A stretch of DNA of 64,000 nucleotides, from positions 1-64,000 of the forward strand of contig JAFDVW010000002.1 of the NCBI GenBank assembly GCA_018268755.1, written 5' to 3'. A model generated the notes under the pieces. It made no database searches and was not told where the DNA came from. It worked only from the letters and a program-made list of their open reading frames with translations. How positions within the stretch are numbered: position 1 is the first letter of the stretch; each line of letters opens with the position of its first letter. The DNA comes from Acidobacteriota bacterium (lineage in GTDB: Bacteria; Acidobacteriota; Terriglobia; Terriglobales; Acidobacteriaceae). Made by a program: the position numbers and the translations under genes. This document shows positions 36,774 through 44,464 of this stretch, one piece after another.

Positions 36774-38357
36774 TTAGCCAAATCCGCCTCCCCCCGGGGT
36801 CTCAATGCGAATGCGCTCTCCCTTGCGCAATCGCACATGGAACTTGCCGGGCATTTCCTGTGCCAGCCGCCCCGCTTGCAGAATTCTGGCTTGGCCCAGG
36901 GCTCCAGCTTTTCCGCCGCGTAGACCCCATGGGGCAAACTTGCGTCGTTCCGCCAGCAAGGTGACTTCGCTATCGGCTAGCACTTCGATCTCTCGCACCA
37001 CTCCATCCCCGCCGCGGAACTTCCCGCTTCCTCCGCTCCCCCGCCGCAGGGAATACTGCCGCACTCGCAGCGGATAGGCATACTCCAGGGCCTCCGCCGG
37101 AGTATTCAGCGAGTTCGTCATGTGCGTGTGCACCCCGGAAACTCCCGGCTTGGTGGGCCGCGCCCCCATACCGCCGGCAATGGTTTCGTAGTAAGTGAAT
37201 GCTTCCCCGGTGCGGGGATCCACGCCGCCGATGGTCAAATTGTTCATGCTGCCGGAAGCCGCGGCTGGGACCCGCTCGGGAATGGCCTGCGCCATGGCGC
37301 GCAGCAGCACATCCACAATCCGCTGCGAAGTCTCCACATTGCCCCCTGCCACCGCTGCCGGAGGTCTTGCATTCACCACCGTGCCCGGCGGGGCAAGCAC
37401 GCGGATGGGTTGCATCAGCCCGGCCGTGGCCGGCACATCCTCCTGCACCAGGCAGCGGAAAATATAGAAGCAGGCGGAATACGTAATGGCTTCCACCGCG
37501 TTCACGCTGCCCTCCACCTGGGGGTCGCTCCCGCTGAAGTCCACCGTCGCCACCGGCTTTCTCCGGTTGCGCCCATGCAGGGTGACGTGCACGGCAATCC
37601 GCACCGGCTTCTCCGTGATGCCATCGTTGTCCAGAAAATCTTCCGCGTGGTAGGTCCCGGCCGGAATGCGCTCGAGAAACCCGCGCATCATCGCGGCCGA
37701 GTACGCCAGCAACTCCTGCGCCGCCCTTCGCGCCCGCGGCAGTCCATATTGCCTGCACACCTCGCGCAGGCGCTCTGCGCCGGTGTGGCAGGCCGCGATC
37801 TGCGCTCCCAGATCGCCCTCCCGTTCCTCCGGGGTCCGCACATTGTTCAAGAACAGGGAAAAAATCTCGCGTTGCATGACCCCGCCCCGCAGCAACCGCA
37901 CCGGCGGAATGCGCAGGCCCTCCTGGTAAATCTCCCGGCACAGTCCCATCGACCCCGGATACATGCCGCCGATATCGGCGTGGTGCGCGCGGGAAGCCAC
38001 GTAAAAGTCCGCTTCCCCCTTTGCGCGCGCGATGTGCACCGGCGCCACCAGGGTCACGTCCGGCAGATGCGTCCCCCCGCGAAAGGGATCGTTGAGCATC
38101 ACCACATCGCCGGCCTGCAGGGGAAAGGCTTCGATCGCCGCACGCACCGACAGGGGCATCGAGCCCAGGTGCACCGGCATATGATCACCCATGGCGATGA
38201 CCTGGCCGTCGCCGTCAAACACCGCGCAGGAGTAGTCGCGGCGCTCTTTGATGTTGGGCGAAAACGCCGTCCGGCGCAGCGCCGCGCCCATTTCTTCCGC
38301 GATGGAGTGATAGATATTTTTGAAAATTTCCAGCTCGATGGGGTCGCGCAGCTTCAT
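36774..38357 (-). CDS. Hydantoinase B/oxoprolinase family protein (HyuB)
   Basis: Subunit B of ATP-dependent N-methylhydantoinase, 5-oxoprolinase or acetone-carboxylase-like enzymes. The 527-residue protein begins '[21 protein letters not shown]' (first 20 residues only) and contains '[15 protein letters not shown]', '[19 protein letters not shown]', 'HHADIGG' and 'TPGGGGFG' at the end, all typical. ATG 38357 gives the standard start; the longer frame overlaps a promoter region. HyuA, normally adjacent, is absent on either side, so its partner must be elsewhere or it acts alone. Substrate unknown. Confidence 0.88.
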
Positions 38358-38428
38358 GAATGCCAAAAAGTGTACGCCTGTCCGCCGGCCTCGGCGTTGA
38401 AAAGGTAACGAAAAACGAAGGAAATCTG

Positions 38429-38457
38429 TTGACAATAGCACGCAGACTACGCAATAT
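38429..38457 (+). promoter_or_regulatory. Candidate promoter of the lysine-rich micro-ORF unit
   Basis: A perfect TTGACA at 38429-38434. Downstream, CAATAT at 17 nt or TATCTT at 20 nt could serve as -10; neither is ideal. It is in the divergent spacer from hyuB. Confidence 0.5.
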
Positions 38458-38465
38458 CTTGATGA

Positions 38466-38530
38466 TGACTGTGATGTCCACCGCATTACGTGGACGGCAA
38501 CGTTGCAGTTGGGTCATGAAATCACAGTCA
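38466..38530 (+). ncRNA. Structured leader: predicted three-way-junction-like RNA
   Basis: Outer stem TGACTGTGAT (38466-38475) pairs perfectly with ATCACAGTCA (38521-38530). Inside are a hairpin GTCCAC/GTGGAC (38476-38481 and 38490-38495) and the palindrome GCAACGTTGC (38497-38506). The fold ends 21 nt before the Shine-Dalgarno of the micro-ORF. The structure is read by eye. Whether it is a riboswitch, a leader or an sRNA domain is open. Confidence 0.5.
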
Positions 38531-38562
38531 CACAAGGGAAAAATCGTTCACGGAGGAACTTC

Positions 38563-38604
38563 ATGCCAGCAAAGAAAAAGGCTAAGAAGAAAAAGAAGCA
38601 CTAA
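38563..38604 (+). CDS. 13-residue lysine-rich micro-ORF
   Basis: Reads MPAKKKAKKKKKH followed by TAA: 8 of 13 residues are Lys, with 4 AAA and 4-5 AAG codons in close runs. A consensus GGAGG (38552-38556) is six bases from the ATG. Upstream are a TTGACA box and a foldable leader; downstream is a strong intrinsic terminator, so it forms its own short transcription unit of about 200-240 nt. It could encode a basic nucleic-acid-binding micropeptide or be a leader peptide whose translation (polylysine pausing) controls something downstream. No family is recognised. Confidence 0.6.
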   Translation: MPAKKKAKKKKKH

Positions 38605-38641
38605 GCCGTTCGCGAGGCAAAGCCTCGTACTACTTACAACG

Positions 38642-38679
38642 CCTCCCGGAAGAAGCACCTTCCGGGAGGTTTTGCTTTT
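38642..38679 (+). terminator. Intrinsic terminator after the micro-ORF
   Basis: Perfect 11-bp stem CCTCCCGGAAG (38642-38652) / CTTCCGGGAGG (38659-38669), loop AAGCAC, then TTTTGCTTTTG. It lies between the micro-ORF and the MerR-family gene. Confidence 0.85.
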
Positions 38680-38727
38680 GCCCCTGCCCTTCTCAGGTAA
38701 AATTCAGGTTGTTCCCAGAACTGGGGA

Positions 38728-39180
38728 ATGGTAGAAACGCCAAAGAAGCGATCCCGTCTCGCTGGAAAGGCGGCGCAGCCAATGACTAGCAAAACCAAAT
38801 CGCCAAAATCCGCCAGGGCCGCCGAAATCGTCATTCCCGACCGCCTATACTTCCGTATCGGCGAAGTGGCCACGCTTTGCCATCTCCCGGCTTACGTGCT
38901 GCGTTTCTGGGAAACCGAATTTCCCCAGCTCAAGCCGGTCAAAAGCAGCACCGGCCAGCGTATGTATCGCCGCAAGGACGTCGAACATGTCCTGCGTATC
39001 AAGAAGCTGCTCTATGAAGAGGGTTTTACCATCGCCGGCGCTCGCCAGCATTTGAAGGAAGAACACAAAGCGGAAAAGAAACAGGCGGCGCTGCCTTTTC
39101 CCCTGGCCCCCGCGCCCGATCTCGCCCCCATCCGCCAGGGCCTGCGCGACATTCTTACCCTGCTCTCAGCCCGCCCCTAG
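38728..39180 (+). CDS. MerR-family transcriptional regulator
   Basis: A 150-residue DNA-binding protein. After a basic N-terminal tail (1-33) comes the winged helix of MerR type: 'FRIGEVATLCHLPAYVLRFW' (about 40-59) and 'RMYRRKDVEHVLRIKKLLYE' (about 73-92). The C-terminus is short with no obvious effector or metal cysteines. Similar stand-alone MerR proteins occur widely in Acidobacteriota and Myxococcota. ATG 38728 or 38782 could start it. The 3' end overlaps rpiA by 4 bp in convergent orientation. Target unknown. Confidence 0.85.
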   Translation: MVETPKKRSRLAGKAAQPMTSKTKSPKSARAAEIVIPDRLYFRIGEVATLCHLPAYVLRFWETEFPQLKPVKSSTGQRMYRRKDVEHVLRIKKLLYEEGFTIAGARQHLKEEHKAEKKQAALPFPLAPAPDLAPIRQGLRDILTLLSARP

Positions 39181-44250: not shown

Positions 44251-44464
44251 GGCTCTCCATGAATGGAGGGCGGACACCCTGTCCGCCCATGACTTATGTG
44301 GATCAGACCGAAGAGCGCAAATCGAGCATGGCTCGCGTCAACAGCCACGAAGTGGCGCAAGAATGCAGCCCAGCGCGTAAGCGCTGGGTAAAAGTGGAAA
44401 GGAACGAGCCCCGAAAGGGGCGAAAGATGAGTTGTGACCCCAGTCTCGGGAAGCCCCAAGGAAT
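44251..44464. repeat. Palindrome-rich spacer between convergent trpE and trpG
   Basis: Three perfect hairpins: GGGCGGACA/TGTCCGCCC (44268-44288, loop CCC), CCCAGCGC/GCGCTGGG (44369-44388, loop GTAA) and GCCCC/GGGGC (44408-44421, loop GAAA). They are separated by non-coding DNA. No ORF is supported. Confidence 0.7.

Follow-up and report, generated by a model that had tools for sequence, protein, structure and literature searches.

The window, by which we mean the whole 64,000-nucleotide stretch of Acidobacteriota DNA analysed here, carries at positions 38429-38679 a compact series of expression signals surrounding an open reading frame (ORF) of 13 codons. The original prediction described this region as a self-contained unit that could make a very basic micropeptide, and a direct check of the sequence (38429-38679) recovered every element that it had named. 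Specifically, the TTGACA box, the two 10-bp stem arms, a GGAGG sequence at proper spacing, the polylysine ORF and a terminator with a T-run all lie where they had been placed, although the intrinsic terminator, which had been called with 11 bp, contains 12 pairs. The features of the unit and its flanking genes are given below, where type A denotes the kind of gene present at this locus and type B a second kind described in the next section.

36774-38357, − strand: hyuB, presumably a hydantoinase B/oxoprolinase-like gene (a product name recognized from the sequence); conserved divergent upstream neighbour, outside the unit
38429-38434, + strand: −35 box TTGACA, identified in the sequence; an upstream TTGAC is shared by 63 of 67 type A genes
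38452-38457, + strand: −10-like box CAATAT, separated from TTGACA by a 17-nt spacer
38466-38530, + strand: predicted leader fold, a 10-bp outer stem enclosing an inner hairpin
38476-38495, + strand: inner hairpin GTCCAC-CGCATTAC-GTGGAC (arms 38476-38481 and 38490-38495)
38533-38562, + strand: conserved box CAAGGGAAAAATCGTTCACGGAGGAACTTC, defined by the BLAST core and alignments; contains the Shine-Dalgarno sequence GGAGG
38552-38556, + strand: GGAGG ribosome-binding site, 6 nt 5′ of the ATG
38563-38604, + strand: micro-ORF MPAKKKAKKKKKH, 13 amino acids, of which 8 are Lys; conserved in both gene types
38613-38627, + strand: 3′ hairpin CGAGGC-AAA-GCCTCG between the ORF and the terminator, from fold prediction; family consensus GCG..CGC
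38641-38670, + strand: intrinsic terminator of 12 pairs with loop AAGCAC; T-run at 38670-38679
38728-39180, + strand: merR-family gene (MerR_1, PF13411); conserved downstream neighbour, outside the unit

The arms of the outer stem pair perfectly over 10 bp (TGACTGTGAT at 38466-38475 with ATCACAGTCA at 38521-38530), and the inner hairpin aligns with a CCCAU..UUGGG hairpin of the family. The predicted transcript (38464-38680) has a folding energy of −73.9 kcal/mol (z = −4.35), and none of 200 shuffled sequences was equally stable. In an alignment of type A relatives, the sequence CAATATCTTG at the −10-like region is strongly conserved; a promoter scan left the CAATAT box, which is poor by E. coli standards, unflagged as a −10 element. 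A search of 38429-38680 against Rfam 15 returned no match. The sole Rfam match in the window is an Acido-Lenti-1 RNA (RF01687, 55.9 bits) at 44343-44388 on the − strand.

Two gene types carry the micro-ORF

A BLAST search with 38400-38720 found matches in 28 of 100 relatives, nearly all of them representing different genera within one family. The matches centre on the ribosome-binding site and the micro-ORF (query positions 134-217), and the matching loci carry Lys-rich ORFs of 11-17 amino acids. When the genome that contains the window was scanned with the degenerate pattern 'SD + M.x.KK...KK', exactly two sites were found, which are the window ORF and a paralogue, and a reversed control of this pattern gave no match in the same genome. 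Thus, given its conservation among relatives and the restriction of the pattern to the ORF and its paralogue, the window ORF is not a chance find.

The two sites correspond to one type A gene and one type B gene, which reside at unrelated loci and encode the identical peptide MPAKKKAKKKKKH. Type A genes have a leader of the form ...CAAGGGAAAATCGTTCACGGAGGAAACTTC and, in the usual case, AAGCAC as the terminator loop; most of them have a divergent hydantoinase-B-like gene on one side and merR on the other. Type B genes are built from TTTTTTCTTGACATC..CTCTATACATTCA, a two-hairpin leader, a ribosome-binding site of sequence AAGGGAGAATAG and a terminator of the form GGGGACGC..GCGTCCCC, with a promoter and ribosome-binding site that are consensus-like.

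Within the family, 129 of 150 genomes match a covariance model of type B (98 of the 110 that are of good quality). These matches cover 74 of 79 genera, and almost every matching genome has a single copy. Intact Lys-rich ORFs are present in 37 of 40 type B matches that were fetched; the three weakest model matches (E about 0.004) lack such an ORF and were set aside as false. The type A model matches 80 of the 150 genomes, where the weakest matches are cross-matches to type B genes, and full-length matches occur in about half of the family. Scanning a species-wide collection of genomes with a pattern yielded at least 117 stretches, almost all from Acidobacteriota metagenome-assembled genomes (MAGs; Terriglobia, Acidobacteriaceae and Candidatus Sulfotelmatobacter), with a few labelled Chloroflexi or Actinomycetota among the matches listed. 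Some pattern matches across the phylum proved to lie at the beginning of longer, ordinary genes, for example one for a 156-residue ribosomal protein S7-like product, and were excluded as members.

Of 29 genomes with a gene of each type, three encode the same peptide at the two loci. Resemblance between the type A and type B peptides of one genome is 0.686 versus 0.620 for permuted pairs, a modest difference that is confounded by relatedness. The ORF is the element most widely common to the two types, whereas their leaders and terminators differ completely.

The ORF evolves as coding sequence

Among type A and type B genes of the same length, Lys codons alternate between AAA and AAG and Ala codons vary at the third position, and the first two positions are nearly constant except in codons 2 and 3. 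To lower selection bias, codon usage was also assessed downstream of codon 8 in 65 ORFs obtained by BLAST or with the covariance model, which spans only the first eight codons. This region encodes almost exclusively Lys (388 codons, of which 295 are AAG and 93 are AAA) and Ala (by all four codons), along with Pro, Thr, His and a few other residues. Asn, Gln and Glu are the usual one-step neighbours of Lys codons, and not one codon for any of them occurs in this portion of the 65 ORFs. The ORF finder required a minimum Lys content, and so this absence constitutes the stronger part of the codon test. Furthermore, peptide length (12-32 residues in the family and 19-28 elsewhere in the phylum) changes by whole codons, such that both substitutions and lengths follow the codon frame as in protein-coding genes.

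On the basis of these sequence patterns, the unit is very probably a real, translated gene. This coding-type evolution, together with the conservation of the ORF, ribosome-binding site, promoter, leader hairpin and terminator, gives strong support to the proposed self-contained unit for a very basic micropeptide. Neither a hydrophobic core nor an aromatic residue is present in the peptide, and the order of its residues is loose, which makes a folded binding site unlikely. As judged by comparing members, it is charge rather than sequence that is kept, and action through charge would be the simplest reading. Lys-rich peptides of 11-13 residues degrade easily, and their detection is difficult.

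A candidate polyanion-binding peptide

The explanation that we favour, with moderate confidence, is an autonomous protein-coding micro-gene, equipped with a promoter, a structured leader, a strong ribosome-binding site and a terminator of its own, whose product would be a 13-residue, disordered and strongly cationic peptide that binds polyanions. Acting through its charge, such a peptide would be a free-standing equivalent of the Lys/Ala tails found in histone H1, AlgP and PhaF, and would neutralize or condense a polyanion such as DNA, RNA and ribosomes, or polyphosphate. Its presumed abundance would be set by two separate loci. We give this polyanion mechanism, taken by itself, roughly even chances. 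Peptides with KPAA repeats are DNA binders in vitro, and association with polyphosphate granules is known for AlgP (PMC9239181). In E. coli proteins, stretches rich in lysine are sites of polyphosphate binding (PMC12345225).

Leader hairpins and the type A terminator covary

The type B leader forms two hairpins in which 96.8% of alignment cells are paired, with 49 double-change cells compared with 11.4 in shuffled alignments. Its covariation score is 0.306 versus 0.152 after shuffling, and slid controls reach at most 0.065; the alignment used was fitted to the model, and an unfitted alignment (A1) agrees. The type A leader includes an 8-pair hairpin with a covariation score of 0.441 versus 0.224 after shuffling (0/500), with slid controls of at most 0.164. 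The multi-branch leader fold that had been proposed for the window is conserved only in part. Its inner hairpin is conserved in type A, as are the ORF, the 3′ hairpin and the terminator, whereas the 10-bp outer stem is private to the window sequence and occurs in no relative of the alignment (A2). Measured against the condition under which the original prediction would fall, a lack of conserved stems or ORF in close relatives, the ORF, the inner hairpin and the terminator hold up and the outer stem does not.

At most of the 12 pairs of the type A terminator, double changes are found in relatives, and as the stem covaries the AAGCAC loop remains nearly invariant. The hairpin carrying this loop (38653-38658) is the sole one of its kind in the window. 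The GGGGACGC..GCGTCCCC stem of the type B terminator is kept in 55 of 57 genes, and a related form exists in distant families. The possibility that GGGGACGC marks a generic terminator motif or a genome-wide repeat was rejected, since the stem has one site only in the genome that contains the window.

Because the type B stem and the type A loop are conserved beyond the needs of a plain terminator, they hint at a role at the RNA level, and an RNA function beside the peptide merits consideration. If so, the transcript of roughly 200 nt might be a dual-function or purely regulatory sRNA, in which the ORF is secondary or serves translation-coupled stability. Covarying leader hairpins, a type B stem that is so widely kept yet occurs once in the window genome, and the nearly invariant type A loop are all consistent with this idea. 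However, the ORF is what types A and B most share, the codon positions behave as coding, a 148-residue ORF occupies the same slot in one genome (see below) and Rfam holds no match, and for these reasons we judge such an sRNA to be an unlikely account of the unit.

Distant relatives and polyphosphate genes

Distant families of Acidobacteriota likewise carry two gene types, with peptides of 19-28 residues in the genomes G213, G239, G255 and G278. One locus has a type-B-like promoter and a GGGGACGCC terminator, and the leader and terminator of the other locus are of another kind. In G239, G255, G278 and two further genomes (G130 and G195), the type-B-like gene has a response-regulator gene upstream, and sigma-54 activator domains were confirmed for three of these regulators. 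Behind a sigma-54 response regulator, the same slot holds a 148-residue Lys/Arg/Thr repeat protein (MAKKKATKKKATKRK..) in G130 (L318, around 6660) and a 14-residue peptide in G195 (L319), a member of another family. Some MAGs labelled Chloroflexi contain one or two copies with an architecture of their own, although only 5 of the 201 genomes searched from that phylum have a match.

Some distant members (L036, L039 and L040) end in Cys (..KKC or ..KKCCC), compared with KKH or KKK elsewhere. Two other loci (L042 and L043) encode 83-residue proteins in which a K-rich N-terminal tail (MAKKKATKKKAS..) is joined to a small domain. Going by its sequence, this domain might conceivably be a bacterial histone fold; a Pfam search with the L042 protein gave no match.

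The surroundings of three type-B-like genes may point to one polyanion in particular. In G213 (L314, 5433-9381) the gene is flanked by ppk1 upstream and a Ppx/GppA gene downstream, G239 has CHAD and ppx-like genes nearby, and in G278 a gene for a PstB-like ABC ATPase follows directly. This pho/ppk/ppx neighbourhood occurs in two distant families and gives a hint of polyphosphate as the ligand. A special case of the favoured explanation would be that polyphosphate is the main ligand of the peptide, either in granules or with the peptide as a counterion under phosphate stress, for which AlgP is a precedent. We consider this narrower version distinctly unlikely, because the neighbourhood is seen only in those two families and the neighbours in the window genome are thiolase, helicase, hyuB and merR genes.

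Ribosomal role and merR attenuation

The near-universal presence of the type B gene, its consensus-like promoter and ribosome-binding site and the extreme basicity of its product could also suit a micro ribosomal or ribonucleoprotein component, comparable to eL41 or bTHX and bound stoichiometrically to the ribosome or its rRNA. Ribosomal proteins keep a residue-specific sequence, whereas the peptides here range from 12 to 32 residues (148 in one case) with free residue order, and the only member searched, of 22 residues, has no similarity to any solved chain. This role is therefore quite improbable.

A gene of the merR family lies downstream in at least 16 of the 20 type A loci found by BLAST, which is a conserved gene order, and ORFs homologous to the hydantoinase-B-like gene at 36774-38357 lie upstream of other type A genes. 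The distance to merR is much larger than in most loci in L013 (approximately +800 nt from the type A ORF) and in L009 (approximately +300 nt, counted to the start of the stop-to-stop frame). The type B gene of the window genome stands alone, between a divergent thiolase gene upstream and a convergent UvrD-like helicase gene downstream.

The original prediction had also raised the idea of a leader-peptide switch for merR through pausing on the lysine run. In such an attenuator, the pausing ribosome would sense charged tRNA-Lys and set read-through of the terminator into merR. Although a Lys-rich ORF directly 5′ of a terminator and the frequent presence of merR would suit such an attenuator, we reject it as extremely improbable because the type B gene of the window genome encodes the same peptide with no co-oriented gene to control and the spacing between ORF and merR varies widely (up to about 800 nt in L013); in addition, distant type-A-like genes adjoin other genes (pilT and a deaminase), no alternative antiterminator fold emerged from the consensus structures in a non-exhaustive search, and merR lies outside the lysine pathway.

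Database and literature searches

When nine related loci were compared with Rfam at E values up to 0.5, no family matched over the micro-genes, and only tRNAs were found elsewhere in these loci. No Pfam or NCBIfam family scored above its cut-off for the longer relatives. The closest approach was that of a 32-residue member to NF038053 (best E 0.028 and 14.7 bits, against a cut-off of 80), for which other members gave no match, and thus at curated cut-offs the peptides fall outside the H1-like families of the NF038053/NF038052 type. A search of PDB chains with one 22-residue member gave none at E values up to 1, which is a weak test for low-complexity peptides, and a plasmid collection yielded no match. 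Within the libraries covered, a literature search on lysine-rich micropeptides in Acidobacteria found no paper on this family.

Implications and comparison with known systems

Taking the micro-gene to encode a cationic peptide as favoured above, it would rank with the smallest stand-alone protein genes that are known to persist throughout a bacterial order and further afield. The family has been left unannotated owing to a size far below the calling range of gene finders. A near-universal, single-copy polycation gene suggests a basic cell function, in nucleoid, ribosome or polyphosphate physiology, in Acidobacteriota, which are a dominant and poorly understood soil phylum. More tentatively, at least one phylum may employ a dedicated, genetically encoded polycation in the form of a free Lys micropeptide of 11-32 residues from two unlinked gene types, a charge-neutralizing 'peptide polyamine' that would condense DNA, ribosomes or polyphosphate without a folded binding site.

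Several known systems share parts of this design. Dual-function sRNAs of the SgrS/SgrT type are short structured transcripts with a ribosome-binding site, a micro-ORF and a terminator. The transcript layout is alike, but here the coding part is the most conserved across both gene types. Leader peptides of amino acid operons (his and trp type) likewise combine a short ORF rich in one amino acid with a terminator close behind, but here no biosynthetic gene follows. Tiny basic ribosomal proteins (eL41, bTHX, bS22 and bL37) are very small, very basic and near-universal within a lineage. The micropeptide resembles them in these three respects but lacks residue-specific conservation.

By analogy, the nearest functional analogue is the tail of bacterial H1-like proteins (AlgP, PhaF and Chlamydia Hc1/Hc2), which also consists of low-complexity Lys/Ala(/Pro) repeats with length polymorphism. 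Polyanion binding would be expected for the micropeptide from its composition alone, and some longer members, including the 148-residue protein and the 32-residue peptide with its weak NF038053 score, resemble H1-like proteins. Should its function be shown, a conserved gene for a free polycation of 11-32 residues might merit a separate class, and otherwise would be a variant of the Lys-rich polyanion-binding tails. In contrast to the H1-like proteins, the tail here lacks any folded domain and by itself constitutes a gene of 11-32 codons, present in two unlinked types per genome. The family thus shows that a lysine tail can exist as its own gene and, in one genome, as a 148-residue repeat protein in the same slot.
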